From NCBI GenBank assembly GCA_937870635.1, contig CALMZP010000098.1, forward strand, positions 1 through 62,084: a stretch of DNA of 62,084 bases, given 5' to 3'. The stretch is from an uncultured Acidobacteriota bacterium (GTDB lineage Bacteria; Acidobacteriota; Thermoanaerobaculia; Gp7-AA8). Positions 40,784 to 57,961 of the stretch are shown here, piece by piece. The position numbers were made by a program, and so were the translations under genes. The notes beneath the pieces are model-generated. The model had not been told where the DNA came from. It saw only the letters and a list, made by a program, of their open reading frames with translations, and did no database searches. Positions within the stretch are counted from its first letter, which is position 1. Each line of letters opens with the position of its first letter.

Positions 40784-41380
40784 ATGAGCTTCAGCAGAAC
40801 GTTTCTCGACGAGACCATCCAGGCGGTCCGGCAGCTCGATGTCGACGGCATCGACCGTCTCGCCGCCGGACTCGCATCGGCCCGCGAAGCCGGTGGCCGC
40901 CTCTTCATCCTCGGAGTGGGCGGCTCGGCCGGCCACGCCAGCCACGCCGTGAACGATTTCCGAAAGATCTGCGCGTTCGAAGCGTATGCGCCGACGGACA
41001 ATGTCTCGGAGCTCACCGCGCGCATCAATGACGACGGATGGGAAGGCGTGCTCGTGGAGTGGCTGAAGACTTCCCGGCTCGATTCGAAAGACGCGCTGCT
41101 CATCTTTTCCGTCGGCGGCGGCAACGTGGAGAAGAACGTGTCGGTCAATCTCGTCCGCGCCATCGACGAGGCGAAGCGCCGCGGCGCGCGCGTATTCGGG
41201 ATCGTGGGCAAGGACGGCGGTTACACGAAGAAAGCCGCCGACGAGTGTGTGGTGATCCCGGTCGTCTCAGCGGAGCGCATCACGCCGCACACGGAAGGGT
41301 TGTGTGCGGTGGTCTGGCATCTGCTCGTCTCGCATCCGGCGCTGAAGGTGGCGCAGACAAAGTGGGAGTCGGTCAGATAG
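40784..41380 (+). CDS. gmhA: SIS-domain phosphoheptose isomerase (GmhA-like)
   Basis: 198 residues: ILGVGGSAGHASHAVNDFRK, LLIFSVGGGNVEKNVSVNLV and a late TPHTEGLCAVVWHLLVSHP. GmhA converts sedoheptulose 7-phosphate to D-glycero-D-manno-heptose 7-phosphate. GHTEG/HTEG-type end residues and neighbours encoding the next three steps support this over other SIS proteins. Convergent with the operon that carries those genes. Confidence 0.8.
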   Translation: MSFSRTFLDETIQAVRQLDVDGIDRLAAGLASAREAGGRLFILGVGGSAGHASHAVNDFRKICAFEAYAPTDNVSELTARINDDGWEGVLVEWLKTSRLDSKDALLIFSVGGGNVEKNVSVNLVRAIDEAKRRGARVFGIVGKDGGYTKKAADECVVIPVVSAERITPHTEGLCAVVWHLLVSHPALKVAQTKWESVR

Positions 41381-41500: not shown

Positions 41501-43303
41501 TCAGTTCAACATCGGCCAATGCCAGGTCCGCGGACCCTCGGCATCGATCGTGACGTCTCGCGGCGGCTGTTGGAACCACGACGTTTCGTCGCCGCGGATG
41601 AGGAATACCCCCACGGCACTCGATGAGGACGCCATGACCCTCTGCCCGTGGCGCAATTCGATCGGCCGGCTCGGATCAACGGCAACGCCGTTGACCATCA
41701 GACTGACCCCGCCGGCGCCGCCCGTCATCTGAACCGGGGCGTGGAGTCCGAAAGGCGTGACAAACCACGAAAGACCCGCGAATTGAGGCGAGGCGACCAG
41801 GCGATACCGCCCTGTGGCCGGCACCACCCACTCCACACGCCCTCCCGCGTCGAGCCGTGCGCTCATACCCGGCAACCATAGATTGCGCAACAGCGGCAGG
41901 TAATGCTTCGTGACATACGCCCCCAGGCGGGGATCGGAAGCGAGCCACACGACGGCGTTGCGATCGGTGATGACCGCCGCCGGCGGATCGGACATCCACG
42001 CGGCGAGCGTATACGGCGCGGCGTGACCGCTCGCGACGAGCTGGCGCGCGAGCACCGGCAGAAACCAGAAATGCCAGGCAGGCTCGCGGCGCAGAGCCCA
42101 GCCGACGCCGTCGAACACTTTCGATCCGGGCGCGGTCCGCGCGTCGGCTTCGCGCATGACCTGATCCTGATACCGCAGCTCGCGCTCTTTTCCTCGAAGG
42201 ACGACGATCGGAACGTGGAGCAGCGCCGCCGCGACCACAAACGCGACGAGCGAACGCGATGGACGCAGGACCGAGGCAACGAAGGGCAGCATGAGGAGCA
42301 CAACGATCTGCAGGTGATAGTGGTAGACGAACTTCATCCCGGCCACGAACGCGATGTTCGCGATCTGCAGCAGCGCGAGAAAGAACAGCGCATCAGGCGT
42401 CCTCCACCTGCGCAGCGCAAACACGAGCCCGACCAGTCCGGACAGGATGATTGCGGCGCCTGAGAGGTCGAGCCCCGCCACATCGAACAGCCCCGCACCA
42501 CCGTAAATGCGAACGCCGAAGGGCACCAGGATGCGGTGCAGGAACGCGAGCGGTACGCGCTCAGCGTGTTTCTCGCCGATGTAATTCTCGACCCACACAT
42601 GCTGATAGAGCGGGCGCAGCGAATCGGTTGCCACGAAGTAGAGAAGCGCCGCGGCGAGGATGGTCACGACGCCGGCAGCGAGCAGTAACGCTTCCTTCCT
42701 GAATCGCCACCGCTTCTCAGGGATGTCCACCGCAACACTGAGCAGCGCCGTCACCGCGAGGAGTGGACCGAGGCGAAGGTTGGCGAGACCGGCGAGACAG
42801 AAGAGGGCGCCGGCGGCGAAGCTCGCGAAACGCGGGCGAGGTCGCCCGCGCTCCAGCAGCAGCGCGAGTCCGCCCAGGTAGAGGACATTGGCGAGGACGT
42901 CGACGCGATACTCCATCACCGAGATCATCAACAGCGAGCTCGACACCGCCAGCACGATCGCCACCCACCGCCCGAAACGATCGATGCCGGCCCGATCCAT
43001 CAATCGCAGGGCGAGCCAGAACGCCACGATCCACAGCGGCAGTTGCGCCCACCGCATGAGGATGATCGCGCTGGCGCCGGGGCTCGATGTGAGCGCCGTG
43101 ACCGGCGCGAAAACGAACCACTGCAGCGGCGTATGGTGTTCCCAGAAATCGCGAAACGGAACGAGACCCTCGCGGACCCAGTTCGTCGCGCGGAAGTACT
43201 CGACTTCATCCCAGTTCAGAGGATGGAGGAAGGTCATCGCGAACAGCCGCGCGGCGCCCGCGATGACCGTCAGCACGATGAGGATGCGGACTTTCCCGTT
43301 CAC
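41501..43303 (-). CDS. GT-C type membrane glycosyltransferase (GT39/ArnT-like)
   Basis: 600 residues from GTG 43303, which overlaps the epimerase stop. First extracytoplasmic loop LHPLNWDEVEYFRATNWVRE carries the acidic DE motif expected of polyprenyl-phosphate-sugar transferases; FRDFWEHHTPLQWF is also typical. About 10-11 helices, then a soluble beta-rich end. The loop LLERGRPRPRFASFAAG is the translation of a REP-like palindrome. Longer frames upstream are shadows of the epimerase and NTase genes. Confidence 0.8.
   Translation of the reverse strand: MNGKVRILIVLTVIAGAARLFAMTFLHPLNWDEVEYFRATNWVREGLVPFRDFWEHHTPLQWFVFAPVTALTSSPGASAIILMRWAQLPLWIVAFWLALRLMDRAGIDRFGRWVAIVLAVSSSLLMISVMEYRVDVLANVLYLGGLALLLERGRPRPRFASFAAGALFCLAGLANLRLGPLLAVTALLSVAVDIPEKRWRFRKEALLLAAGVVTILAAALLYFVATDSLRPLYQHVWVENYIGEKHAERVPLAFLHRILVPFGVRIYGGAGLFDVAGLDLSGAAIILSGLVGLVFALRRWRTPDALFFLALLQIANIAFVAGMKFVYHYHLQIVVLLMLPFVASVLRPSRSLVAFVVAAALLHVPIVVLRGKERELRYQDQVMREADARTAPGSKVFDGVGWALRREPAWHFWFLPVLARQLVASGHAAPYTLAAWMSDPPAAVITDRNAVVWLASDPRLGAYVTKHYLPLLRNLWLPGMSARLDAGGRVEWVVPATGRYRLVASPQFAGLSWFVTPFGLHAPVQMTGGAGGVSLMVNGVAVDPSRPIELRHGQRVMASSSSAVGVFLIRGDETSWFQQPPRDVTIDAEGPRTWHWPMLN
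42831..42855. repeat. REP-like palindrome H inside a coding region
   Basis: CGCGGGCGAGGTCGCCCGCG plus CTCCA: same core as copies A and G. In frame inside the GT-C gene, in a predicted loop. Confidence 0.88.
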
Positions 43304-44268
43304 GAGATGACGCCGCTGCGGAACTGCGCTACGACTTCGGCAATGGTTCGCCTGACGGCATCGGCGCTGCTGAGCCGCGGCTTCCAGCCGAGGGCGGTCA
43401 TGCGGGTGGTGTCGAGCTGTACCTGCGGCACGTCGCCGCGCCACCCGCGCGAGCCGCCGGTGTAATGGACGTCGACCTTCCTTCGATCCAGGCCGAGCTC
43501 CGCGATCACAGCCTCGGCGATCTCGGTCACCGAAGTCTGGTCGGGCACGGCCAGGTTGTAGCAGTTCACCGCATCGCGCGCGTTGGTGAATCCGAACTCC
43601 ATCCCCTCGATGCAGTCTTCGACGTAGACGTAAGGTTTGGCCTGCGTGCCGTCGCCAAGGATCTTCAACTGCGACGGATCTTCGAGAAGCCGCTTCACGA
43701 AATCGTAGATGACTCCGTGGGTCGGATACGGCCCGATGATGTTGCCGAAGCGGAAGATCCACGCGCGCATGTCGTAGTTGTGGACGAACGCGCTGATGAG
43801 CGTCTCGCACGCCACCTTGCTCGCGGCATACAGCGAGATGGGCAGGATCGGCCCGTAGTTCTCCGGCGTCGGCATCACCGTCGGCTCGCCGTACACCGCG
43901 CCGCTGCTCGAGAAGATGAGTTGCTTCGCGCCGCTCCGGCGCATCGCTTCGAGCACGTTGTAGGTGACCAGCGTCCCGCCCTTGAGGTCGAAGTCGGTGT
44001 AGGCCGTTCCGTAGCTGATGTCGCTGTTCGCCGCCACGTGCCACACCAGGTCCGGCTTTGCTTCCGCGAACACCTCGGCCAGCGGTTCGACTTTCAGCAG
44101 GTCGAACTCGAAGAAATGGAAGCGCGGATGCGCGAGCGACCGCTCCAGATAGGAGCGGCGGCCGAGGAAAAAGTTGTCGACGCCGAAGACTTCGTCGCCG
44201 CGAGCGAGCAGGCGCGGGATTAGATTCGTGGCGATGAACCCCGCGGCCCCGGTCAGGACGACGCGCAC
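43300..44268 (-). CDS. NAD-dependent nucleotide-sugar epimerase/dehydratase (extended SDR)
   Basis: 322 residues from GTG 44268. TGAAGFIATN binds NAD (the third motif glycine is Ala); active site Ser122 in FSSSGAVYG, Tyr147 and Lys151 in YAASK. GERGWRGD-like SRGWRGDVPQVQLDTTRMTA near the end is shared with the second epimerase gene at 53068. Probably acts on the GDP- or UDP-sugar made in this locus; the reaction is unassigned. Confidence 0.83.
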   Translation of the reverse strand: MRVVLTGAAGFIATNLIPRLLARGDEVFGVDNFFLGRRSYLERSLAHPRFHFFEFDLLKVEPLAEVFAEAKPDLVWHVAANSDISYGTAYTDFDLKGGTLVTYNVLEAMRRSGAKQLIFSSSGAVYGEPTVMPTPENYGPILPISLYAASKVACETLISAFVHNYDMRAWIFRFGNIIGPYPTHGVIYDFVKRLLEDPSQLKILGDGTQAKPYVYVEDCIEGMEFGFTNARDAVNCYNLAVPDQTSVTEIAEAVIAELGLDRRKVDVHYTGGSRGWRGDVPQVQLDTTRMTALGWKPRLSSADAVRRTIAEVVAQFRSGVIS

Positions 44269-44933
44269 TAAACGGCTCCCTCGAGGGCGGCGCGCGTTCG
44301 CGCGAGCTCTTCCGGCGTTCCGATGTCGAAGAAGGTGTGATCGACGATCTCGGCCTCGAGCCGGCCGTTCTGCGCAAGCCCTCCGTACACGATCTGCTCG
44401 AACGAACAGACGCCGTACGGCGGGAGCAGGTCGATGGCCTCGCTGTGCACGACGGAAAAGCCCGCGTCGACATACGGGAGGTCGGTCGCCGATTTGTCGA
44501 ACCTGGTCACCAGCCCGTTCGCAACCGCCGTATTGCCAGTCGTCATCCGCGGGTAGACGGCCAGCGCGTGGTCGGTGTGCTGGTTCACGAAACGATCGTA
44601 GTCGAAACGGCGGAGAACGTCGCCATAGGTGAGGACGAAGCGGTCACCGAGAAGATGCCGCGCCTCGCGGATCGCGCCGCCGGTGCCGAGCAGCTCCTTC
44701 TCCCGGCTGTATTCGATCCGCAGCTCTCCCCGACCGCTCCGGAAATGCGACTCGATGACATCCGAGTGATGGCCGACGAGCAGAACGAACTGCGTGAAGC
44801 CACGCTCGGTGAACGAGTCGATGATGTATTCGAGGAAGGGACGGCCGCCAACCATCACCATCGCCTTCGGCAGTCCGCGCGCGAGCGCGCCGAGCCTGGT
44901 ACCGAGCCCACCGGCGAGGATCACGACTTTCAT
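44268..44933 (-). CDS. Sugar-1-phosphate nucleotidyltransferase (HddC-like)
   Basis: 221 residues from MKVVILAGGLGTRLGALARG. The pyrophosphorylase motif GGLGTRL, with LPKAMVMVGGRPFLEYIID and LLGTGGAIREARHLLG, matches HddC/RfbF-type enzymes. In context it should make GDP-D-glycero-alpha-D-manno-heptose from the 1-phosphate. Overlaps the next gene by one base and the previous by four. Confidence 0.75.
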   Translation of the reverse strand: MKVVILAGGLGTRLGALARGLPKAMVMVGGRPFLEYIIDSFTERGFTQFVLLVGHHSDVIESHFRSGRGELRIEYSREKELLGTGGAIREARHLLGDRFVLTYGDVLRRFDYDRFVNQHTDHALAVYPRMTTGNTAVANGLVTRFDKSATDLPYVDAGFSVVHSEAIDLLPPYGVCSFEQIVYGGLAQNGRLEAEIVDHTFFDIGTPEELARTRAALEGAV

Positions 44934-46397: not shown

Positions 46398-47705
46398 TCA
46401 CTGGTACAGCCGTGGGGCCAGCGCGAGCGCCCGCTCCACGCAGACATCCGAGTTGATGTAATCGAACTGGGCGAAACGGCCGAGCAGATGCATCCCGGTC
46501 CGCTCCACCGCGTCGCGCATGAGAGTCACGTTCTTCCGGTAGTCGAGGTCGTACACCGGATATCCGTATTTGAAACGGACGGCGCGCCGATAGACGATCG
46601 ACGACGGCTCGACGAATCCGATCTTCTCCAGATCGTCCACGACGCGCCGCACGATCTCCTCGTCGGAAAGCTCCCAGATTCCGTCGCCTTCGTTCGCGGT
46701 GATCTCGGCCATGATGCTCGAGTAGCCCGGCGGAACGCAGTGCTCGCTGAACGCCTTCGGGAACGACAGCCTGTGGAAGAGGATCTCCGAATCCGGGACG
46801 TACACGGCGGTGTACGGATATCCCGGATCAACATTGCATCCGATCACGACGTTGATGAGCGAGTTGTAACGGAGCCGCCCCGCCGCGGTCCGAGCTTCCT
46901 GCGGGGCTTCTTCCCATATCGCGAGAAGGTCATGGATCGGCAGCGTCGAGACCAGCTCGTCGTAAAGCCGCTCCTCCGCTCCCTTCGACATCACGTGCCA
47001 GTGCTCGTCGGCGAACCGGACCGACGCCACTTCCCACCCTGTCTCGATGCGTCCCTTCGCGCGTTCTGCAAATGCGCGGACCATCGCTTCGAAACCACCC
47101 TCGATCGGATAGTAGAAATTCAACTGATGCAGATATCCCTCGGTTGGGATCCCGATGGATGACTTCAGGACGTCCTCGAGCGGTGGTTTGGGGATGCGCG
47201 AAACGAACTCGAGACCGATCTTCTCCGGGTCGTGATTCCAGATCTTCCTGTTGTACGGGATGAAGTACTTCTCGGATATGCCGGCACCGAACGTCTTGTA
47301 CGACCACTCCGCGAGGTTCGCCGGCGTGTCGTTCGCGCGCGGATTCTTGAGATAGCCGAGGATGCACTCGAAGTTGTCTTCGGGCGCCAGGGCGGCGAGG
47401 TCGTTCTCGAATGGGTATTTGACCAGCCGTCCCTTGAAGAAGATCTTGTTCTCGCGGCGGCGCTGGTGGACGTTGTCGCCGAGGACGCTCACCATGAGGT
47501 TCAGCACATCCTTGTTCTTGCTGAACATGATGTGCGGCCCGGCTGCGTCGAACGTGAATCCGTTCTCGCTGATGGTTCCACACAGGCCGCCGATGCGACT
47601 CCGTTTCTCGAGTACGTCGACGTCATCGCCCAGCTGCGACGCGAGCGCGACTCCCGAGATCCCGCCGCCGAGAATCCCCACCCGGCGATGAGCGGGAGGA
47701 GGCAT
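46398..47705 (-). CDS. FAD-dependent oxidoreductase, UDP-galactopyranose-mutase/amine-oxidase-like
   Basis: 435 residues. FAD motif VGILGGGISGVALASQL and GGLCGTISENGFTFDAAGPH; PYNRKIWNHDPEKIGLEFVS and FYYPIEGGFEAMVRAFAE recall UDP-galactopyranose mutase-like and NAD(P)-binding desaturase-type proteins of LPS loci. Whether it acts on a nucleotide sugar or a lipid is open. TGATG junction with the kinase gene; GTG 47708 is an alternative start. Confidence 0.75.
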   Translation of the reverse strand: MPPPAHRRVGILGGGISGVALASQLGDDVDVLEKRSRIGGLCGTISENGFTFDAAGPHIMFSKNKDVLNLMVSVLGDNVHQRRRENKIFFKGRLVKYPFENDLAALAPEDNFECILGYLKNPRANDTPANLAEWSYKTFGAGISEKYFIPYNRKIWNHDPEKIGLEFVSRIPKPPLEDVLKSSIGIPTEGYLHQLNFYYPIEGGFEAMVRAFAERAKGRIETGWEVASVRFADEHWHVMSKGAEERLYDELVSTLPIHDLLAIWEEAPQEARTAAGRLRYNSLINVVIGCNVDPGYPYTAVYVPDSEILFHRLSFPKAFSEHCVPPGYSSIMAEITANEGDGIWELSDEEIVRRVVDDLEKIGFVEPSSIVYRRAVRFKYGYPVYDLDYRKNVTLMRDAVERTGMHLLGRFAQFDYINSDVCVERALALAPRLYQ

Positions 47706-48760
47706 CACGTACTCTCCCGCGACAGCGCCATCGATTGCTGGGGGGAAAGGAGACCCGGACCCATCTGCGCGACGACCTTCGTGCCTTCCGGCTCGACGGT
47801 GTAGTGCATGCGGGGCATGCCGTGTTCGAGCATGAAACGCTCGAGCGTCTTTGGCTTGCTCGGCGTGTAGAGCATGAGGAATCCACCGCCGCCTGCCCCG
47901 ATGATCTTGCCGCCGAGGACGCCGAAACGCTGGCGTACGGTGTCGTAAATCTCGTCGACGCGGCTCAACGAGATCTTCTTCGACATCTTCTTCTTGTTCT
48001 GCCAGTGTTCATCGAGGAGCTGGCCCCACGTATCGAAGTTGTTCGATTCGACGGCTTCCAGGATGCGGTAGCCGAGGTCTTTGATGCGGTGAAGGCTTTC
48101 CGACACGCGGGCGTGATCGGAGCTGTCCTTTTTCTGCATGGCGACGTTCTGATCGGCCAGTACTTCGCGGGCGTCTCTCTGCGCGCCCGTGTAATAGATG
48201 TGGGTATGCGCGACGAATTCGGCGACGTCGCTGCTGCTGGGCCGGAGCTGCCGGACTTCGACCTTCCCGTCGCGGGCGATCTCCATCACCGTGAGGCCGC
48301 CGAATGCGGCCATGTACTGATCCTGTTTGCCGATCCCTTCCTTGAGGATGTCGAGCTCGATGTGACAGGCCTCTTCTGCGAGAGTCTGCAGCGGCACGTA
48401 GTCGCGCCGGTCGTGATGAAGCGCGTTGAGGAGTCCGACCAGGTAGCAGCTCGAGGATCCGAGTCCGGTTCCGGCCGGAAGGTCGGCCATGGAGGCGACC
48501 TCGAAATTGCTCTCGACCTTATGCATGCGAAGCGCTTCGCGGGCCAGCTCGTGGCGCAGCTCGCCCACGTGATCGACGACCTCACTCTGCGTGTAGTGGA
48601 GGACGATCTTGCTGCCGACGACCGGCCTGTTCACGCTCACGTACATGTACTTGTCCAGGCCCATGGCGAAGATGAAGCCGCGGTTCTGGGAGTAATAGGA
48701 AGGGAGGTCCGTGCCGCCTCCACCCAGCGTGACGCGGAAGGGCGTCCGCGTGACGATCAC
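47705..48760 (-). CDS. GHMP kinase, D-glycero-alpha-D-manno-heptose 7-phosphate kinase-like (HddA)
   Basis: 351 residues from GTG 48760, which overlaps the transaldolase stop. Sugar-end motif RTPFRVTLGGGGTDLPSYYS; ATP motif DLPAGTGLGSSSCYLVGLLN; C-terminal GGKIIGAGGGGFLMLY. HddA phosphorylates heptose 7-phosphate at C1. Length and motifs fit; upstream frame (to 48940) is a shadow. Confidence 0.82.
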   Translation of the reverse strand: MIVTRTPFRVTLGGGGTDLPSYYSQNRGFIFAMGLDKYMYVSVNRPVVGSKIVLHYTQSEVVDHVGELRHELAREALRMHKVESNFEVASMADLPAGTGLGSSSCYLVGLLNALHHDRRDYVPLQTLAEEACHIELDILKEGIGKQDQYMAAFGGLTVMEIARDGKVEVRQLRPSSSDVAEFVAHTHIYYTGAQRDAREVLADQNVAMQKKDSSDHARVSESLHRIKDLGYRILEAVESNNFDTWGQLLDEHWQNKKKMSKKISLSRVDEIYDTVRQRFGVLGGKIIGAGGGGFLMLYTPSKPKTLERFMLEHGMPRMHYTVEPEGTKVVAQMGPGLLSPQQSMALSREST

Positions 48761-49470
48761 AGCCTGAATCCCGCCGCCGCGGCGTCCTGGTAGAACATCC
48801 TGACCGTGTCGAGGGACAGCTCGTCGAGCGACTTTCCGACCATCGCCAGCTTCTTCAGGATGTCGGGCGTCACGGTGATGATGTGGCAGCCGCACTCGTC
48901 GGCCTGGATGATGTTCAGGAGCTCGCGCGGACTGGCCCACAGAAGCTGGGCTTTCGGTTTGGCATCGACGATTTCCCGCGCTTCCTTCATGAGCGGAACC
49001 GGGTCGCGGCCCGTATCCGCGATGCGGCCGGCGAAAACCGAGACGATCGCCGGAACATTTGCGTCGAGTGCGTCGACGACATCCTTCACCTGCTGCAAGG
49101 TGAGGATCGCGGTGACATTGAGCTTCACCCCCGCCTTCGACAGGCGGCGGATCAGAGGCACAGCCGTTTCGCCGCGGGTATTGGTGATCGGAATCTTGAC
49201 GAACACGCCCTCGCCCCAGGTCGAGATGAGCTTCGCCTGGCGCTCCATCTCGTCGAACTCGTCCGCGAATACCTCGAACGAGATCGGCATGCCCGACACG
49301 GCCTGAAGCGCGTCCTTCGCGAAGGATTCGTAGTCGGTGATGCCTGACTTGCGCATCAGCGTCGGATTCGTGGTGAAACCCTTCACCAGGCCTGCGGCGC
49401 GCGCGGCGACCATGTCGCGCACATCCGCACCGTCGGAGTAGAGGTGGATGCGTAGATTCGGCGTCGGCAT
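48757..49470 (-). CDS. Transaldolase-family protein
   Basis: 237 residues from MPTPNLRIHLYSDGADVRDM. Schiff-base Lys is expected in KLNVTAILTLQQVKDVVDAL-like strand region (VKLNVTAI); GFTTNPTLMRKSGI is the usual substrate loop. The short form resembles TalC/fructose-6-phosphate aldolases. Placed between heptose genes, it could supply sedoheptulose 7-phosphate or interconvert its precursors. ATGA overlaps on both sides. Confidence 0.82.
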   Translation of the reverse strand: MPTPNLRIHLYSDGADVRDMVAARAAGLVKGFTTNPTLMRKSGITDYESFAKDALQAVSGMPISFEVFADEFDEMERQAKLISTWGEGVFVKIPITNTRGETAVPLIRRLSKAGVKLNVTAILTLQQVKDVVDALDANVPAIVSVFAGRIADTGRDPVPLMKEAREIVDAKPKAQLLWASPRELLNIIQADECGCHIITVTPDILKKLAMVGKSLDELSLDTVRMFYQDAAAAGFRL

Positions 49471-50033
49471 CAAGCGATCTTTTGAACCAGTTCTGCCAGA
49501 TCCGCGCAAACGAGGTCGGGTCTGACCGTCCCGCGCCGCGCCTCTGAATGTTCGTATTCTATCAGCGCAGTGCGGCACCCCGCGCTGCGGCCGGCTTCGA
49601 TGTCCGTGCCGGAGTCGCCGGCCATCCACGACTTCGTCAGATCGACGTCATATCTAGCAGCCGCTTCGCGGAGGAGATGCGGGCTCGGTTTGCGGCACTG
49701 GCATGGCCCGAACCCCGGAATCTGCGAATCGGGATGGTGGTAGCACACGAAAGATCCCGTGATGACGACCCCAGCCTCCCCAAGTCGCTCCAACACCCGT
49801 TCGTGGACCTGCTGCAGGCTTTCCAGCGAACACTTTCCCTTCGCATAACTCGGTTGATTGGTGATCAGGAACAGGAGCCATCCGCGGCGGATCGCTTCGC
49901 GGAGAGGCGACTCGATTCCCGGCAGCATCCGAAGCTCTTCGACGCTGCGCGGCGACTCCCACTCGCCATGTGAGGGGTAGAACACCAGCTCATTGATCAC
50001 TCCGTCGCGATCCAGAAAAAGCCCTCGGTTCAT
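49470..50033 (-). CDS. gmhB: D,D-heptose 1,7-bisphosphate phosphatase (GmhB)
   Basis: 187 residues. HAD motif I LFLDRDGVINE, Thr in LLFLITNQPSY, zinc loop CYHHPDSQIPGFGPCQCRKP with Cys/His ligands, and MAGDSGTDIEAG (motif III). Removes the C7 phosphate of heptose bisphosphate. The middle step of the heptose route. Confidence 0.9.
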   Translation of the reverse strand: MNRGLFLDRDGVINELVFYPSHGEWESPRSVEELRMLPGIESPLREAIRRGWLLFLITNQPSYAKGKCSLESLQQVHERVLERLGEAGVVITGSFVCYHHPDSQIPGFGPCQCRKPSPHLLREAAARYDVDLTKSWMAGDSGTDIEAGRSAGCRTALIEYEHSEARRGTVRPDLVCADLAELVQKIA

Positions 50034-50398: not shown

Positions 50399-51081
50399 CG
50401 GAAGAGCCTCTTGAACAGGTAGTCGAATGCGATCCGGAACGCGGCCAGCCCGGACTGCCCTTTGCTCATTGAGTACTCGGAGTACCGGATGACCACAGGA
50501 ACTTCCGTCACCCGGAGCTGATGGCGCCGGATCTGGTCAACGATCTCACTCGCGTGAGCCATGCCGTCGAGCGTGATCCTGATCTTCTCGGCGGCCGTGC
50601 GCCGCAGCGCTCTCAACCCGTTGTGTGCGTCCGTCAGCGGGACACCGGAGGTGATCCGCATGAACTGCGTCGCGACGCGGAGGACGGCGCGGCGCCGGGC
50701 CGGCACCTTCGATTGACGGTCGAGAAAGCGCGAGCCAATCGCCAGGTCGGCGTTCGTTTGATCGAGCGCATCGAGAAGCCGGTCGATGTCTTCGACACGG
50801 TGCTGACCGTCGGCGTCGAACGTCACGATCACTTCTCCGCCGCAGCGGAGGCCGTATTCGATGCCCGTCTGGAGGGCTGCACCCTGACCGCGATTGAGAA
50901 CGTGACGGAGGACGATCGCTCCGGCGCGCCGTGCCTCGGCAGCCGTGGCATCGCGCGAGCCGTCGTCGACCACGATCACGTTCGGATACGCGCGCCGCAG
51001 CTCGTCGACCACGCCGAAGACCGCCGCTGCCTCGTTGTACGCCGGCACGACGACGTAGACGCCACCCCGAGAGATCTGCAT
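50395..51081 (-). CDS. Family 2 glycosyltransferase (DPM1/GtrB type)
   Basis: 228 residues: VYVVVPAYNEAAAVFGVVDE, IVVDDGSRDATAAEARRAGA, VIVTFDADGQHRVEDIDRLL and a C-terminal VVIRYSEYSMSKGQSGLAAF. Typical polyprenyl-phosphate hexosyltransferase. Upstream in-frame sequence (to 51285) overlaps the membrane protein gene and is rejected. Confidence 0.87.
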   Translation of the reverse strand: MQISRGGVYVVVPAYNEAAAVFGVVDELRRAYPNVIVVDDGSRDATAAEARRAGAIVLRHVLNRGQGAALQTGIEYGLRCGGEVIVTFDADGQHRVEDIDRLLDALDQTNADLAIGSRFLDRQSKVPARRRAVLRVATQFMRITSGVPLTDAHNGLRALRRTAAEKIRITLDGMAHASEIVDQIRRHQLRVTEVPVVIRYSEYSMSKGQSGLAAFRIAFDYLFKRLFR

Positions 51082-53063
51082 CAGTGAATGCGCCGGAAGA
51101 CCGCCTGATTCGTAACTCGATTGTAGACCACCAGCTCGAACCGCCGATCCTTCTGGAGCGCGTCGAGTACACGCATCTCTTCCGGGCCCGGCTTTCCCCG
51201 CACGAGAAAGCGGCGCGCCTGGCTGAGGTCCTTGAAGTCCGGATGTTCCCATATCGACGCGTAACTCCGGTCGATCGCAACCCACCGGACGCTCTCCGGG
51301 ATCTCCACCGGCCCGACTCCCGGAGGAATGAAATGAACCGGCCGCGTCAACTCCCTGCCGAAGGCCGGGTGAATCCAGGTCCCGTATCCCGCGTCGATCG
51401 CCACGGCATCCTGCGGCCCGGCGCGGCGGTCGACCAGCGATGCTGCGCGGTTGGCATCGAAGGCGACGACCCTCGTCCCCCGATTCTTCGCGGCCCAGCG
51501 CACGTACTCCATCGGCGCGAACGTGTCATTCACCGCATTGTCGACGGCGTATGCACCGAACGAGACCGCCGCAATCACCGCCAGCGGAAGAGTCCAGCGG
51601 CCTCTCAGCAGCGGACCGACCGTCCATCCGAACACGATCGGGACGACGAACAGCGCATATCTGGGGAGGGAAATCGCGAACATCCCATGGGGCCGGAAAT
51701 CGACCGGAAGCATCAGCAGCAAAGCGGCTGCCGCTGCCGCCGTCACCGCCACCCGCTCATCGTGGAGCGGCGGGCGATCCCGCCCGCCGGCCCCCATTGG
51801 GAGCGGGCGGGATCGTCCGCGGCTCCATCGAATGATCACGACCGGCATCGCGAGCGCACAAAGCGCGAACGGGATCCCCAGATGCGAGAAGAAAATCTCA
51901 TACTTCCGCCAGAACCACGGGGTCTCGGACCATGGCACGGGCAACTGGTACCTCGTTCCGACGAACGGCGCCGCGAGCAGCACGTACGGCGCCTGCCACA
52001 GATTGATCCAGTCGCCGTAAGCCACGACAGTCTGCTCGTCATGCGTGCCGGCGATGCCGATGAGAACGCTCTCGTTCACAGCATTCGACACGTAGACGAA
52101 TCCACCAAGCAGCAGAAACGCGATGGCACCAGCCAACGCGAGCCTCACCATCGTCTTCAGACGAAAGCCGCGAAACAGCAGCGGCGCTGCACACAGCGCG
52201 ACCGCGGCCGCCTGCGGTTTCGTTCCCACGGCGGCCGCGAATACGACCACCATGGCCGTCGCCGTCTGCACCTCGCCGGTCGCGACCCAGCGTCCCGCGA
52301 GAACGAGTGCGCCCACGAGCAGAGCCGCGGTCATGAGATCGTTCTTGTGGGCTCCGCTGTGAAGGAGCGCAACGGGAACAGAGGCGACGAACATGGCGGC
52401 AACGCCACTCGCTGCGGGCGGAGTTCGCCACCATCGTTCGCAGAGCGCTGCCGACGCAACAAGCAGGAGCAGGTACGAAAGAAGGGACAGCCACTCGGTG
52501 ATGTCATCGCTCCTCTCGATGAGGATCACCTCCGCCAGCATCAGCTCGTAGTTCGCCGGGATGTTCCGGATCCGCGCGTCGAGAAAAGATAGATGCTCGT
52601 ATCCCGCCGCCCGTGAGAAGAGGACTGCCTTCGGAAGGTGATGCGCCAGCGCGTCGTGGCTGACGGGGGGGATGATCACGCCGCGCCAGAGGATGAAAAC
52701 GCTCCAGAGAACGAGAGGAATGGCGACGAGGAGAATCGTCGCCGCAGTTGCCGGCGGAACTGAGCCGGCAGGCGCATGCGTGACACCTCTGGTGCGCCGC
52801 CACCATAGAAGCAGGGCGACCGTGGCGACGATGAAGGTCCGGCCCAGCAGCACCGGTGCCGTCATCACGTGCACGATGGCGGTCAGCCAGAGAGTGGCCA
52901 GCCACGAGACGAGGGCGATCAACCCGGTATAGCAGGCGCGCTCGAACGGATCGACGCCGCCCTTCCAGACGCGGCGGCAGATCTCATGTCCGAGGAGGAC
53001 AAACGCCGCCACGGTGGCGAGCAGTAGCACGTATCGACGATACCAGAAGGTATACTCGCCCAC
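51081..53063 (-). CDS. Polytopic membrane protein (GT-C-like)
   Basis: 660 residues from a GTG at 53063 (VGEYTFWYRRYVLLLATVAA); an upstream reading to 53129 would run into the divergent epimerase gene. About 12-13 helices and a soluble C-terminal domain; an acidic extracytoplasmic loop PPVSHDALAHHLPKAVLFSR recalls GT-C enzymes. The loop WSRGRSRPLPMGAGGRDRPP is a translated inverted REP pair (51762-51827, 22 codons). First gene of the 12-gene operon. Confidence 0.72.
   Translation of the reverse strand: MGEYTFWYRRYVLLLATVAAFVLLGHEICRRVWKGGVDPFERACYTGLIALVSWLATLWLTAIVHVMTAPVLLGRTFIVATVALLLWWRRTRGVTHAPAGSVPPATAATILLVAIPLVLWSVFILWRGVIIPPVSHDALAHHLPKAVLFSRAAGYEHLSFLDARIRNIPANYELMLAEVILIERSDDITEWLSLLSYLLLLVASAALCERWWRTPPAASGVAAMFVASVPVALLHSGAHKNDLMTAALLVGALVLAGRWVATGEVQTATAMVVVFAAAVGTKPQAAAVALCAAPLLFRGFRLKTMVRLALAGAIAFLLLGGFVYVSNAVNESVLIGIAGTHDEQTVVAYGDWINLWQAPYVLLAAPFVGTRYQLPVPWSETPWFWRKYEIFFSHLGIPFALCALAMPVVIIRWSRGRSRPLPMGAGGRDRPPLHDERVAVTAAAAAALLLMLPVDFRPHGMFAISLPRYALFVVPIVFGWTVGPLLRGRWTLPLAVIAAVSFGAYAVDNAVNDTFAPMEYVRWAAKNRGTRVVAFDANRAASLVDRRAGPQDAVAIDAGYGTWIHPAFGRELTRPVHFIPPGVGPVEIPESVRWVAIDRSYASIWEHPDFKDLSQARRFLVRGKPGPEEMRVLDALQKDRRFELVVYNRVTNQAVFRRIH
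51762..51827. repeat. REP-like inverted pair I/J inside a coding region
   Basis: Copy I starts GTGGAGCGGCGGGCGATCCC at the left; copy J ends GATCGTCCGCGGCTCCA at the right. The pair spans exactly 66 bases, so the reading frame is kept. It occupies a loop between two membrane helices. Confidence 0.85.
53051..53056 (+). promoter_or_regulatory. Candidate -10 for the epimerase cassette
   Basis: TATACT lies 11 bases before the GTG at 53068, in a 4-base gap zone between divergent genes. No strong -35 is seen. Confidence 0.4.
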
Positions 53064-53067
53064 GCTC

Positions 53068-54024
53068 GTGAAGGCTTTCGTCACCGGCGGCGCCGGCTTC
53101 ATCGGCAGCACCCTCACAGACCGTCTCATCTCCGCCGGACACGATGTCGTGGTCTACGACAATTTCTCGACCGGCAAAGAGGAGTTCCTCCGTGAAGCGC
53201 TGGCCAGCGGACGGGTCACCGTCACGCGAGGCGATGTGCTGGACCAGTCTCTCCTGACCGCGTCCATGCGCGGCTGCGACACCGTCTTCCACATCGCTGC
53301 CAACGCCGACGTCCGTTACGGCCTGACGAATCCGCGCCGTGATGTCGATCAGAACACGCTGGCGACTTTCCACGTTCTCGAGGCCATGCGCGCGAACGGC
53401 ATCGGCCGGATCGTGTTCTCCTCGACCGGATCGATCTACGGCGAGCCGGACGTCTTCCCCACGCCCGAGGATGCGCCTTTCCCGGTCCAGACTTCGCTTT
53501 ATGGCGCGTCGAAGCTCGCCGGCGAGGGCCTGATCTCGGCCTATTGCGAGGGTTACGGGTTTCGCGGCGTCATCTTCCGGTTCGTGTCCATCCTGGGCGA
53601 ACGCTATTCGCACGGCCATGTCTTCGACTTCGTACGCAGTCTTCGCGCGGATCCGACCCGGCTCACCGTCCTAGGCAACGGACAGCAGCGAAAGTCCTAT
53701 CTCTACGTCGGGGACTGCGTCGAAGCGATGCTCCTCGGTCTCGATCGGGCAGGCGGTAAGGTGAACATCTTCAACCTCGGCGCCGACGAATACTGCGAAG
53801 TCACCGACTCAGTGGGCTGGATCTGCGATCGGATGGGTGTGCGGCCCCGGATCGAGTTCACCGGCGGCGAGCGTGGATGGATCGGGGACAGCCCCTTCAT
53901 CTTCCTCGACTGCACGCGCCTCCGCTCTCTCGGGTGGAAGCCGACACTCTCCATCCGCGACGGCGTGATCCGGACCGTCGATTTCCTGCAGGCGCACCCC
54001 TGGCTCCTGGAGGCACGCGCGTGA
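53068..54024 (+). CDS. NAD-dependent nucleotide-sugar epimerase (extended SDR)
   Basis: 318 residues from GTG 53068 (VKAFVTGGAGFIGSTLTDRL). NAD motif GGAGFIGS; Ser/Thr in FSSTGSIYG, Tyr145 and Lys149 in YGASK. Its C-terminal FTGGERGWIGDSPFIFLDCT resembles the epimerase at 43300, so the two are paralogues with perhaps different sugars. A GTGA overlap joins it to the dehydrogenase. Confidence 0.85.
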   Translation: MKAFVTGGAGFIGSTLTDRLISAGHDVVVYDNFSTGKEEFLREALASGRVTVTRGDVLDQSLLTASMRGCDTVFHIAANADVRYGLTNPRRDVDQNTLATFHVLEAMRANGIGRIVFSSTGSIYGEPDVFPTPEDAPFPVQTSLYGASKLAGEGLISAYCEGYGFRGVIFRFVSILGERYSHGHVFDFVRSLRADPTRLTVLGNGQQRKSYLYVGDCVEAMLLGLDRAGGKVNIFNLGADEYCEVTDSVGWICDRMGVRPRIEFTGGERGWIGDSPFIFLDCTRLRSLGWKPTLSIRDGVIRTVDFLQAHPWLLEARA

Positions 54025-55295
54025 AGGTCTGCGTAGCGGGTCTCTGGCACCTCGGTTCGGTGACGGCAGCTTGCCTGGCCGCCGCCGGCCATGACGTCGT
54101 CGGGCTCGACGATGATCGAAAGACGATCGATCGACTCAATGAAGGCAAGCCGCCCGTGCTCGAGCCCGGCCTGGGAACGCTCACGCAGGACGGCATCGAG
54201 GCGAAGCGTCTGCGATTCACGACGGATCGTGAGGCGATCAGAGATCGCGATGTGATCTGGGTCACCTATGACACGCCGGTCGACGACGATGATCGGGCCG
54301 ATCCGGAAAGCGTGATCGAGCACACCCGATCGCTTTTCGGATTCATGAAGGACAACACACTCGTTGTCATTTCCTCGCAGCTGCCGGTCGGGTCAACGGC
54401 AGGGCTCGAGAATGCCTACCTCGCGCTGAAGCGGCCCGAGGCGGTCTCGTTCGTCTACTCCCCGGAAAATCTTCGACTCGGCAAGGCGATCGATGCATTC
54501 ATGAAGCCGGATCGCGTGGTGGCCGGGACACGGAAAGAGCTCGACCGAGTGCGTTTCGGAGATCTCATGGCGCCGATTACGACCAGGATCGAATGGATGT
54601 CGGTGGAGTCGGCCGAGATGACGAAACACGCTCTCAACGCGTTTCTCGCAACCTCAGTGACCTTCATCAACGAGATCGCGCGGATCTGTGAGCGAGTGGG
54701 AGCTGACGCGAAGGAAGTGGAACGCGGGCTCAAGACAGATCTCAGGATCGGCAGTCGCGCCTATCTTTCGCCGGGATCAGCATTCGCGGGGGGCACGCTG
54801 GCGCGAGACATCACCTTCCTCAGCACCATCGAGCCGCTGCCGCTCATCACGAGCGTCAAGCGAAGCAATGATCAGCACAAGTCGTGGGCGCTCGATCGCA
54901 TTCACGCAGAGCTTCGAACCATGGCGGGCCGCAAGGTCTGCGTCTGGGGTCTGACGTACAAGCCCGGAACCGACACTCTGCGCCGTTCGTCGGCGATCGA
55001 GCTTTGCCAGGCTCTCGCATCGGAGGGCGCGCAGGTCACGGCGTACGATCCGGCCGTGAAGAGTCTGCCGCCGGAGCTCGCCTCGATCATCGATCTCAAG
55101 AAGACGGCCCGTGAGGCGGCTGCAGACGCTGAGGCGGTCGTCGTCACAACCGAGTGGCCGGAGATCAGAGAGTCCGCGAAGTCGGCGCTGCCGCAGCGGC
55201 CAATCGTGGTCATCGATGCGAACCGCTTCCTGGCCGCAGAGATCGTGGACCGCGCCCATCTCTACTACTTCAGCGTGGGAAAGGGCCTGCCATGA
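54021..55295 (+). CDS. UDP-glucose/GDP-mannose dehydrogenase-family protein lacking the catalytic Cys
   Basis: 424 residues from GTG 54021. NAD motif VAGLWHLGSVTAACLAAAGH; Lys202 and Asn206 in MTKHALNAFLA, and GLTYKPGTDTLR are conserved. The thiol site that normally reads GGSCFPKD is AGGTLARD: Thr259 replaces Cys. SPENLRLGKAI also departs from the usual SPEFLREG. So ordinary four-electron oxidation to a uronic acid is doubtful; a two-electron or other reaction, or a structural role, is possible. Downstream SDR and oxidoreductase may complete the sugar change. Confidence 0.82.
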   Translation: MKVCVAGLWHLGSVTAACLAAAGHDVVGLDDDRKTIDRLNEGKPPVLEPGLGTLTQDGIEAKRLRFTTDREAIRDRDVIWVTYDTPVDDDDRADPESVIEHTRSLFGFMKDNTLVVISSQLPVGSTAGLENAYLALKRPEAVSFVYSPENLRLGKAIDAFMKPDRVVAGTRKELDRVRFGDLMAPITTRIEWMSVESAEMTKHALNAFLATSVTFINEIARICERVGADAKEVERGLKTDLRIGSRAYLSPGSAFAGGTLARDITFLSTIEPLPLITSVKRSNDQHKSWALDRIHAELRTMAGRKVCVWGLTYKPGTDTLRRSSAIELCQALASEGAQVTAYDPAVKSLPPELASIIDLKKTAREAAADAEAVVVTTEWPEIRESAKSALPQRPIVVIDANRFLAAEIVDRAHLYYFSVGKGLP

Positions 55296-56158
55296 TTCTG
55301 GCCGGGCGGAACGCGATCGTCACAGGCGCAAACCAGGGGCTGGGCCTCGAGATCGCGCGCGCGTTCGTCGCTCAGGGCGCAAACGTCGTGATCTGCGCGC
55401 GGGACGCCGGCCGTCTGAATGATGCCGCGGAAGAGCTCCGCGGCAAGGCGCGGCCGGGACAGCAGATCATCGCGGAAACGGCGAACGTCTCCGACGAGGA
55501 AGATGTCCGCCGCATCGCCGGCGCGGCGATCCACGCGTTCGACCAGGTGCACATCCTGGTCAACAATGCCGGTGTCTACGGGCCGAAAGGAAGGATCGAG
55601 GAGATCGACTGGGCCGAATGGATCCGGGCGATGGAGATCAACGTCAACGGGTCAGTGCTCTTCTATCGCCACGTCGTTCCCCACATGCGGGCGAAGCGAT
55701 ATGGAAAGATCATCCAGCTCTCCGGCGGCGGAGCAACCACACCCCTCCCCGGCATCAGCGCGTACGCGGCGTCAAAAGCGGCAATCGTGCGATTCGCGGA
55801 GACCCTCGCCGAAGAGACACGCGGCAGCGGCATTGATGTGAACTCCATCGCGCCGGGGCCGTTGAACACCCGTCTGCTCGATGAGATCCTCGAGGCGGGC
55901 CCGGAGAAGGTGGGACGCGACTTCTACGAGAGATCCGTCCGTCAGAAGAACGAGGGAGGAGCGCCGCTGGCGCGGGGCGCAGAGCTCGCCGTGTTCCTTG
56001 CATCTGCGGCGAGCGACGGGATCACCGGCAAACTACTGAGCGCGATCTGGGATCCGTGGGAAACCCTGCCCGACCATCGCCAGGACTTGCGCGGAGACGT
56101 TTACACCCTGCGCCGCATCGTCCCGAAGGATCGCGGCTTCGGCTGGGGAGATCGATGA
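55292..56158 (+). CDS. Short-chain dehydrogenase/reductase
   Basis: 288 residues: TGANQGLG at 11-18, NNAG 91-94, Ser144 in LSGGG, Tyr158 and Lys162 in YAASK. Length exceeds a classical SDR by about 35 residues at the C-terminus (YTLRRIVPKDRGFGW). Overlaps the dehydrogenase as ATGA and the next gene likewise. Likely acts on the same sugar. Confidence 0.85.
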   Translation: MILAGRNAIVTGANQGLGLEIARAFVAQGANVVICARDAGRLNDAAEELRGKARPGQQIIAETANVSDEEDVRRIAGAAIHAFDQVHILVNNAGVYGPKGRIEEIDWAEWIRAMEINVNGSVLFYRHVVPHMRAKRYGKIIQLSGGGATTPLPGISAYAASKAAIVRFAETLAEETRGSGIDVNSIAPGPLNTRLLDEILEAGPEKVGRDFYERSVRQKNEGGAPLARGAELAVFLASAASDGITGKLLSAIWDPWETLPDHRQDLRGDVYTLRRIVPKDRGFGWGDR

Positions 56159-57150
56159 CCCGGAAACCCGGCGTAGCCATCGTCGGCTGTGGCCTCATCG
56201 GAAAGAAGCGAGCAGCGGCACTCGGCGACGCGCAGCTCGTGGCCTGCGCGGACATCGTCCGCGAAAAGGCGGCCGCGCTTGCGGCGGGGACGAATGCGGT
56301 TCCCTCCAATGACTGGCGCGCGGCGATCGATCGCAGCGACGTCGACATCGTGATCGCCGCCACGATGAACAGCCTCCTTCCGGACATTGCCGTCGCTGCG
56401 CTCGAAGCCGGAAAACACGTGCTGATCGAAAAGCCGGCCGGGCGCAACGTTGCGGACATTGACCGGATCGCGGCGGCACAGCGATCCAGCGGCAAACTGG
56501 TGCGCGTGGGCTTCAACCATCGCTATCACCCCGCGCTCCTCAAAGCGAAAGAGGTGTTCGACCGCGGGTTTCTCGGCGAGATGATGTTCGTGCGGGGCCG
56601 CTACGGTCACGGCGGTCGGGTCGGATACGATCGCGAATGGCGCGCCGACCCGGCTCTTTCCGGCGGCGGAGAATTGATCGACCAGGGCGTGCATCTCATC
56701 GACCTTTCCCGCCAGTATCTCGGCGAGTTCACATCCGTTGCGGGCGAAGCACGGACGTTCTTCTGGGACATGCCCGTCGATGACAATGCATTTCTGCTCC
56801 TCGAGACGGCGACCGGGCAGACCGCCTTTCTCCACGCGTCGTGCACCGAGTGGAAGAACCTGTTCTCACTCGAGATCTACGGCCGGGATGGCAAGCTTCA
56901 CGTCGAAGGCCTGGGAGGCAGCTACGGCGTCGAGCGCGTGACCTGGTATCGGATGCTGCCGGAGATGGGCCCTCCTGAAACCGAAGCGTGGGAGTACCCC
57001 GGCGCCGACACGTCGTGGAAGACAGAGTTCGACGAGTTCCTGGAGGACGTGAGGCTCGGAAGGACGCCGGCAGCGGGCCTCGACGACGCCCGCGCCGCGC
57101 TTGCAGTCGTCGAGCGGATCTACGCTGCCTCGGGCTATGACCGCCGCTGA
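56155..57150 (+). CDS. Gfo/Idh/MocA-family oxidoreductase
   Basis: 331 residues: VAIVGCGLIGKKRAAALG binds NAD, EKPAGRN at 92-98 has the catalytic Lys, and GELIDQGVHLIDL gives Asp176 and His180. These enzymes oxidise or reduce ring carbons of sugars and nucleotide sugars (for example WlbA-like 3-dehydrogenases). Together with the SDR and the Cys-less dehydrogenase, it suggests a modified sugar. ATGA overlap upstream. Confidence 0.86.
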   Translation: MTRKPGVAIVGCGLIGKKRAAALGDAQLVACADIVREKAAALAAGTNAVPSNDWRAAIDRSDVDIVIAATMNSLLPDIAVAALEAGKHVLIEKPAGRNVADIDRIAAAQRSSGKLVRVGFNHRYHPALLKAKEVFDRGFLGEMMFVRGRYGHGGRVGYDREWRADPALSGGGELIDQGVHLIDLSRQYLGEFTSVAGEARTFFWDMPVDDNAFLLLETATGQTAFLHASCTEWKNLFSLEIYGRDGKLHVEGLGGSYGVERVTWYRMLPEMGPPETEAWEYPGADTSWKTEFDEFLEDVRLGRTPAAGLDDARAALAVVERIYAASGYDRR

Positions 57151-57961
57151 CCCCTCCCCGCCGCTGCTCACGGTATTCACGCCGTTCTATCGGAACATCG
57201 AGTATTTCGAAGAGACGATCGTCAGCGTCCTCTCACAGTCGTTCCGCGATTTCGAGTACCTCATGATCAACGACGGCGATCCCGCGGAAGGCGCAACGAT
57301 CGAGAAGCGGTTTGCCGATCCGCGGATCAGGATCATCCACCCGCCGGCACCACTCGGGCTGAGCGGATCGCGGAATGCCGGCCTCACGGAGGCGCGCGGC
57401 GAGCTGATCGCGTTCATCGACTCCGACGACTTCTGCGAGCCGGGAAGACTGGAAAAACAGGTTGCCTTTCTCCGCGATCATCCCCACCACATTCTGGTCG
57501 GGACTGCCTTGCGTTACATCAACGAGCGGTCTGAGACGATCGGCTCGCGCCGCTATCCGGAAACTGACGAGGAGATCAAACGGCGCCTCGTCTTGGTGAA
57601 CTGCGTCGCCCAGCCTTCGGTGATGGCGCGGCGGGCGAAGCTCATTGAAGCGGGGGGTTACACCAGCGAGTTTCCGGCCGCCGAGGATTACGCGCTGTGG
57701 CTGCGGCTCGCGCGTTTCGGCAAGTACCACAATCTGCAGGAACCGCTGGTGGCCTACCGGATCCACACCGCCTCGGGAAAGAATCTTCTGCTCAAGCCTG
57801 CACTGCGTGACACGACGCGACTGAAGATCGCTGCGATCAGACGTTACGGTTTTCGCCCGACGCCCGCTGCGATCCTGAGCATCATCATGCACTCGTTGAT
57901 GCTTCTGTTGCCGAGCCGCCTCATCTTCTGGCTCTTCCGCCGGCTGGTCGTAGCGGGGTGA
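57137..57961 (+). CDS. Family 2 glycosyltransferase
   Basis: 274 residues from ATG 57137; 14-base overlap with the previous gene. GT-A motifs: TVFTPFYRNIEYFEETIVSV, MINDGDPAEGATIEKR, IDSDDFCEPGRLEKQ (DxD) and PAAEDYALWLRLARFGKY. A hydrophobic C-terminal end (PAAILSIIMHSLMLLLPSRL) suggests membrane association. Last gene of the plus-strand cassette; convergent with the next gene, whose stop is adjacent. Confidence 0.86.
   Translation: MTAADPSPPLLTVFTPFYRNIEYFEETIVSVLSQSFRDFEYLMINDGDPAEGATIEKRFADPRIRIIHPPAPLGLSGSRNAGLTEARGELIAFIDSDDFCEPGRLEKQVAFLRDHPHHILVGTALRYINERSETIGSRRYPETDEEIKRRLVLVNCVAQPSVMARRAKLIEAGGYTSEFPAAEDYALWLRLARFGKYHNLQEPLVAYRIHTASGKNLLLKPALRDTTRLKIAAIRRYGFRPTPAAILSIIMHSLMLLLPSRLIFWLFRRLVVAG

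Follow-up and report, generated by a model that had tools for sequence, protein, structure and literature searches.

A conserved Cys-less subfamily of UDP-glucose dehydrogenase homologues tied to a heptose-type sugar cassette

The locus and its genes

The window analysed here is a whole stretch of 62,084 nucleotides (contig CALMZP010000098.1, assembly GCA_937870635.1) from an uncultured Acidobacteriota bacterium. The RecA of the host genome likewise suggests Acidobacteriota, with 70% identity to that of a genome of its phylum, 68% to that of a Bryobacteraceae genome and 59-61% to those of Verrucomicrobiota and Chloroflexota. The window encodes a homologue of the nucleotide-sugar dehydrogenases, designated DH, in which the catalytic Cys is replaced by Thr. 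This protein belongs to a conserved Cys-less subfamily of the UDP-glucose dehydrogenases (UGDH) that is tied to a heptose-type sugar cassette. The gene is the second of four tailoring genes, EPI1-DH-SDR-GFO, which are joined by 4-bp overlaps into one operon (53068-57150 of the forward strand). The initial annotation had coupled DH to an epimerase, a short-chain oxidoreductase (SDR) and a Gfo/Idh/MocA oxidoreductase, and the junctions bear this out: the stop codon of EPI1 overlaps the GTG start of DH (gTGA, 54021-54024), and the stop codon of DH overlaps the ATG of SDR (ATGA, 55292-55295). The genes HAD-TAL-KIN and NTP, predicted to act on sugar phosphates, lie together on the reverse strand within 50033-44268, and all nine genes of the cassette are present in the window (Table 1).

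Table 1. Genes of the cassette and associated genes in the window
Gene	Coordinates	Strand	Assignment	Basis or remark
EPI1	53068..54024	+	Extended-SDR NAD-dependent epimerase/dehydratase family	Pfam PF01370; cassette hidden Markov model
DH	54021..55295	+	Cys-less nucleotide-sugar dehydrogenase homologue	GTG start, 424 amino acids
SDR	55292..56158	+	Classical FabG-like short-chain oxidoreductase	Family-model matches; cassette hidden Markov model
GFO	56155..57150	+	Gfo/Idh/MocA oxidoreductase, EKP motif intact	4-bp overlap with SDR
GT2	57137..57961	+	GT2 glycosyltransferase	PF00535; end of the same operon, outside the conserved core
SIS	40784..41380	+	GmhA-like ketose/aldose-phosphate isomerase	Divergent phosphate loop
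EPI2	43300..44268	-	Second epimerase-like protein	Common to two same-family genomes with the sugar module and without Thr-type DH
NTP	44268..44933	-	Sugar-1-phosphate nucleotidyltransferase	Best NCBIfam model HddC, below cutoff
	46398..47708	-	Flavin amine-oxidase-family protein	Pfam PF01593; same Pfam match in the G008 locus
KIN	47705..48760	-	HddA-like GHMP kinase	PDB matches 4usm, 3k85, 4n3o
TAL	48757..49470	-	Transaldolase, TIGR02134 type	348.9 bits vs cutoff 281.95
HAD	49470..50033	-	GmhB-like HAD-IIIA sugar-bisphosphate phosphatase	112 bits, PRK08942

A nucleotide-sugar dehydrogenase with an altered active site

DH contains all three domains of the UGDH/GDP-mannose dehydrogenase family above cutoff, namely the NAD-binding (PF03721), central (PF00984) and UDP-binding (PF03720) domains, and scores 305 bits against the nucleotide sugar dehydrogenase model TIGR03026 (cutoff 189.8). 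Its closest solved structures are the UDP-glucose dehydrogenases 3gg2, 4a7p and 2y0e. The fold is predicted to be intact, since the AlphaFold2 model has a mean predicted local distance difference test score (pLDDT) of 93.6 and matches the UGDH structures over its full length with a template-modelling (TM) score of about 0.9. In its fold, its three Pfam domains and its 33-34% identity to the best bacterial matches, DH thus resembles characterised UGDHs (3gg2, BceC 2y0e and the human enzyme) and members of TIGR03026.

In canonical UGDHs, the first step of catalysis is hydride transfer from the C6 hydroxyl, with Asp264 and a water molecule serving as the base; the catalytic Cys then holds the resulting aldehyde and carries it onward to a thioester (PMC4794789, PMC3184952). 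Within the family, Cys260 is assigned as the covalent catalyst and Asp264 as the general base, and hydrolysis of the thioester is attributed to Tyr10 (PMC4794789). With the numbering of the S. pyogenes enzyme in parentheses, the corresponding residues of DH are Thr259 (Cys260), Asp263 (Asp264), Lys202 (Lys204), Asn206 (Asn208), Glu149 (Glu141), Gln120 (Thr118), Leu153 (Glu145) and a retained Thr85 (Thr83). All alignments place the SAFAGGTLARD segment of DH against G(F/Y)GGSCFPKD, with Thr259 at the position of the catalytic Cys. The Thr in AGGTLARD, the retained Lys202 and Asn206, and the alteration of SPEFLREG to SPENLRLG had all been read correctly in the initial annotation. That annotation also pointed to a late Asp in YKPGTD; this residue is present, but the catalytic Asp of the family is Asp263, within AGGTLARD itself, and it is likewise retained.

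A published analysis of the UGDH family lists 18 invariant residues (PMC4794789), of which DH retains 14. The four that are replaced are Gly9 (Trp), Thr118 (Gln), Gly257 (Ala) and Cys260 (Thr). Beyond this list, Tyr10 is changed to His, Glu145 to Leu, Lys116 to Ser and Ser259 to Gly, such that GLWHLG stands for the GxGYVG motif and SSQ for KST. The loop that wraps around the sugar before the active site is one residue longer in DH. A separate, canonical Cys-type UGDH with 37% identity to DH is encoded on another contig of the host genome, and the ordinary supply of UDP-glucuronate is therefore independent of DH.

A clade defined by the loss of Cys

Searches of genomes and plasmids recovered 28 distinct relatives of DH with 45-61% identity which, together with the query, constitute a clade of 29; for comparison, 32 canonical Cys-type enzymes and their loci served as controls. 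Thr occupies the catalytic position in all 29 clade members and Cys in all 32 controls. In total, 28 positions separate the clade from the controls, and many of these lie in the active site. Leu153 is invariant (29/29), as are Trp9 and His10 (28/28), and Gln120 occurs in 28 of 29; hence Tyr10, Thr118 and Glu145 of the canonical enzymes are all displaced, as is the second Gly of the GxGxxG dinucleotide-binding motif. The residues of the first oxidation persist: the equivalents of Asp264, Lys204 and Glu141 are invariant across the 29 members, and that of Asn208 is found in 28. In the NAD domain, Thr85 and the acidic residue that ends strand 2 (Asp in 26 members) are also kept. Positions that serve the first oxidation (Asp264, Lys204, Thr83 and Glu141, with Asn208 in 28/29) are thus retained in the clade, and those assigned to the second half of the reaction (Cys260 and Tyr10) are not.

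No replacement thiol emerged from the clade alignment, in which no Cys is both conserved and specific. Cys223 is shared with 32/32 canonical controls, and Cys329, which sits in a helix of the C-terminal domain, is found in only 20/29 members. At position 146, three residues ahead of the active-site Glu149, 15/29 members have Cys and 12/29 have Tyr, the window protein among the latter, and most canonical enzymes have Ser; a required thiol at this site was rejected on these grounds, and in the other members its Cys may line the pocket. Likewise, a sequencing error, frameshift or decay as the source of Thr259 was discounted, as the Thr and 27 other positions are common to the clade of 29. A phage origin was also rejected: the phage matches among those listed have only 26-34% identity, far below that of the clade, and a scan for viral contigs found none.

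In a maximum-likelihood tree, a branch with 100/100 support and a length of 0.92 sets the 29 proteins and two divergent Cys-less relatives apart from the other sequences, and the AGGTLARD homologues accordingly form the single clade for which the initial annotation had proposed to look. Both relatives adjoin SIS-HAD-TAL genes. One (L185:6305-7705, reverse strand) carries GGTLGRE, where Glu takes the place of the catalytic Asp; the other (L179:2360-3763, reverse strand) carries GGNLTRD, with Asn for the Cys, and its long branch makes its exact placement unsure. Outside the clade, a UGDH homologue from an Erysipelotrichaceae metagenome-assembled genome (L042:3874-5178) has Phe at the Cys position in YGGTFYPKD, with the FPKD-type context kept.

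Members of the clade occur in Acidobacteriota (the phylum of the window), Chloroflexota and Verrucomicrobiota, on two Rhizobium megaplasmids and on plasmid 3 of Lawsonia intracellularis. Their distribution is patchy, with DH in 7/396 genomes of the window's phylum and in 5/301 and 9/241 genomes of two other phyla. Together with the plasmid cases, this patchiness suggests horizontal transfer. No characterised member of the clade was found, and the open-access literature yielded no relevant report of a Cys-less UGDH clade or of this cassette, subscription papers lying outside the search.

The conserved cassette

Profiles derived from the cassettes of the window and of R. jaguaris (locus L099) were run on the 29 clade loci and the 32 control loci. 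Because these two loci seeded the profiles, the thresholds were chosen after the data had been seen and the loci are phylogenetically non-independent, Fisher values are indicative only. DH and SDR were found in 29/29 clade loci, the epimerase in 27, Gfo/Idh in 26, the GHMP kinase in 24, SIS in 23, the nucleotidyltransferase and transaldolase in 22 each, and HAD in 20. All nine families are present in 16/29 loci and at least eight in 22/29; most loci with fewer than eight end at contig edges, and two (L013 and L125) are incomplete despite several kilobases of flanking sequence. At the same thresholds, 0/32 control loci contain any of the eight partners. The association with the same SDR and Gfo/Idh partners, for which the initial annotation had proposed a test, is thus borne out, and it extends to the epimerase. 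Across 72,556 plasmids, matches to the DH clade and to SIS are confined to an identical group of five records, and the five close Gfo/Idh matches come from these as well; one more Gfo/Idh match, a weaker one, is from Paenibacillus. On the Lawsonia plasmid, the products that PLSDB names near the DH gene match this set, and SIS is present in all seven DH-bearing genomes of the window's phylum.

Several neighbouring features were noted alongside the cassette. In an otherwise similar cassette, a methyltransferase-domain protein (L175:13628-14536, reverse strand) occupies the slot of DH between the epimerase and SDR. Within the window, the flavin amine-oxidase-family protein may, on our own reading of its sequence, resemble sugar pyranose/furanose mutases. 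A large, multi-spanning membrane-like protein with no Pfam or NCBIfam match is encoded at 51081-53129 on the reverse strand, its upstream end overlapping the beginning of the oppositely oriented tailoring operon, and HEAT repeats are fused to a cyclophilin-type peptidyl-prolyl isomerase domain at 3633-6128 on the forward strand.

The sugar made by the module

A transaldolase combined with an isomerase, 1-kinase, bisphosphatase and nucleotidyltransferase follows the logic of a nucleoside diphosphate (NDP)-heptose route (PMC10680097), and homologues for the four steps of GmhA, HddA, GmhB and HddC are encoded together in the window. Among PDB entries, phosphoheptose isomerases are the only matches to SIS, and KIN matches HddA-type kinases; HddA is also the best NCBIfam match of the Rhizobium KIN orthologue (168 vs a cutoff of 600). 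TAL exceeds the curated equivalog cutoff of TIGR02134. The acceptor used by a transaldolase sets the chain length, with erythrose 4-phosphate leading to a heptose and ribose 5-phosphate to an octose. On homology, a heptose-type sugar is favoured.

Established NDP-heptose systems resemble the cassette in pairing a homologous isomerase, kinase, phosphatase and nucleotidyltransferase with subsequent oxidoreductases that reset stereocentres. They differ in that the four homologues of the cassette lie below the equivalog cutoffs, and in that the cassette adds a transaldolase. The C. jejuni heptose set relies on C4-dehydrogenase/C4,6-dehydratase chemistry and, unlike the cassette, lists no UGDH-type dehydrogenase (PMC10680097). 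An 11-gene bradyrhizose cluster of photosynthetic Bradyrhizobium, which includes a dTDP-glucose-4,6-dehydratase-like gene, similarly concerns an unusual sugar with an unknown pathway (PMC4743980). The cassette could be related to this cluster, which is offered only as a lead, the other genes of the cluster being unnamed in that source.

Proposed function of DH

The clade shares with UGDHs the equivalents of Asp264, Lys204 and Glu141 and, in 28/29 members, that of Asn208. It departs from them in the replacement of Cys260, Tyr10, Thr118 and Glu145, in the loss of the second Gly from GxGxxG, in the one-residue insertion of the sugar-wrapping loop and in its gene neighbours. A single idea, the oxidation of a secondary alcohol on an NDP-heptose, would connect the pattern of residues with the genes alongside. 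We propose that DH is an oxidoreductase that tailors a heptose-type sugar in its NDP-activated form and is limited to the first two-electron oxidation, plausibly of a secondary alcohol at C6; we place the probability of this proposal at roughly 0.4. From the observed residue changes, clade and cassette, we infer the heptose substrate, the C6 position, the use of NAD+ and the product. The transaldolase, GmhA-like isomerase, HddA-like kinase, GmhB-like phosphatase and nucleotidyltransferase would generate an NDP-activated heptose-type sugar, which the Thr-type dehydrogenase, SDR, Gfo/Idh protein and epimerase would then reshape for an unusual surface glycan. DH would hold the NDP-sugar in a UGDH-like pocket, where Asp263 and Lys202 would serve a single hydride transfer to NAD+. 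In a heptose, the carbon at the place of glucose C6 would bear a hydroxyl group and a further carbon, such that oxidation would end at a ketone (NDP-heptos-6-ulose) that the partner reductases could reset. With oxidation of the secondary alcohol stopping at the ketone, the thiol would be left without a task; and because no thioester would be formed, Cys, Tyr10 and Glu145 could have been lost. As a precedent for secondary alcohols in this fold, the complex of human UGDH with UDP-4-keto-xylose (9dh0) was set aside, as the ligand derives from E. coli ArnA.

The initial annotation had suggested a two-electron oxidation and a product other than a uronic acid. The loss of the thiol, Tyr10 and Glu145 fits this suggestion; the heptose-type module and the unusual NAD motif were missed. 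Its interpretation is therefore partly supported, being right in direction and understated.

A number of observations weigh against the proposed oxidation of an NDP-heptose. With Trp for the second Gly of the dinucleotide motif in 28/28 clade members, ordinary binding of NAD+ is not assured; this Trp is the main unexplained feature, and cofactor binding may be tight or altered. KIN, SIS, HAD and NTP are all under the curated equivalog cutoffs of the true heptose enzymes, the window proteins scoring 49 vs 209 for GmhA, 112 vs 178 for GmhB and 100 vs 300 for HddC. In the window SIS and its orthologues, the serine-rich phosphate loop of GmhA (STSG type) is replaced by SVGGGN, and their substrate may differ from sedoheptulose 7-phosphate. 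Given these scores and this loop, a sugar with a different number of carbons, such as an octose, could be made instead. Further, SIS is found in 21/396 genomes of the phylum, 14 of these 21 being without DH, and several of the 14 have the module without DH, SDR and Gfo/Idh. Two loci from the family of the window (L173 and L174, in G008 and G011) contain SIS, HAD, the kinase, the nucleotidyltransferase and EPI2, with no Thr-type DH nearby. The former also has the flavin mutase-like protein and the latter a transaldolase, and together with the DH-bearing loci they provide a natural with/without pair. An indivisible cassette was accordingly rejected, given SIS without DH in 14/21 genomes; since the module stands without DH in other genomes of the phylum, the DH set is an optional tailoring of a sugar that is also usable without it.

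The kept first-oxidation residues and the lost thiol would also fit if DH oxidised a primary alcohol once and released an NDP-sugar aldehyde (dialdose) to SDR, Gfo/Idh or another partner, and the human C276S and C276A variants indeed fail to complete the oxidation of UDP-glucose (PMC3184952). This is nonetheless unlikely, as free sugar aldehydes are reactive, the conserved set is without an aminotransferase or aldolase acting on NDP-sugars and the partner genes point to a higher-carbon sugar. Marginally less likely again is a redox-neutral enzyme that keeps NAD tightly bound, oxidising its substrate, epimerising it or effecting some other step, and re-reducing it in the manner of an epimerase. 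The Trp and His of the NAD-binding loop (28/28) may change cofactor exchange, and the heptose pathways provide a precedent in the C4-dehydrogenase Cj1427, which holds NADH tightly (PMC10680097), but a bound cofactor in DH is conjecture, and an epimerase and two other oxidoreductases are already among the cassette genes.

That DH might still oxidise its substrate by four electrons to the acid, passing through an aldehyde hydrate in place of a thiol adduct, seems improbable. The human C276A variant does oxidise added aldehyde (PMC3184952), and the equivalents of Asp264 and Lys204 are kept; however, Tyr10 and Glu145 have been lost along with Cys across the clade, a canonical Cys enzyme is available elsewhere in the genome and a uronic acid would not require the cassette. 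Although replacement of four of the 18 reported family-invariant residues might be expected of a catalytically dead paralogue, retained to sense sugar nucleotides or to act as a scaffold, the remaining 14 persist, no clade member deviates at the catalytic Asp, Lys or Glu and the gene remains in an operon with three oxidoreductases across phyla, making this role highly improbable.

Significance

Members of the clade score as hits to the automatic “nucleotide sugar dehydrogenase” models and are thus likely to be read as makers of uronic acids, although the standard thiol chemistry is unavailable to them. The hosts concerned include soil bacteria, rhizobia and Lawsonia, an intracellular bacterium of pigs. 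For these organisms the nine-gene cassette, complete in one window, provides a defined gene set for a putative, unusual surface sugar. For the enzyme family, with the residues of the second half-reaction gone and those of the first kept, the clade represents a natural experiment in the conversion of a four-electron dehydrogenase. It is conceivable, if somewhat short of an even chance, that the cassette constitutes an undescribed pathway to a new NDP-activated higher-carbon sugar, spread over at least four phyla and plasmids, in which thiol loss and remodelling of the NAD loop would have turned an enzyme of the UGDH fold from four-electron, acid-forming chemistry to a two-electron, ketone-forming or redox-neutral role.
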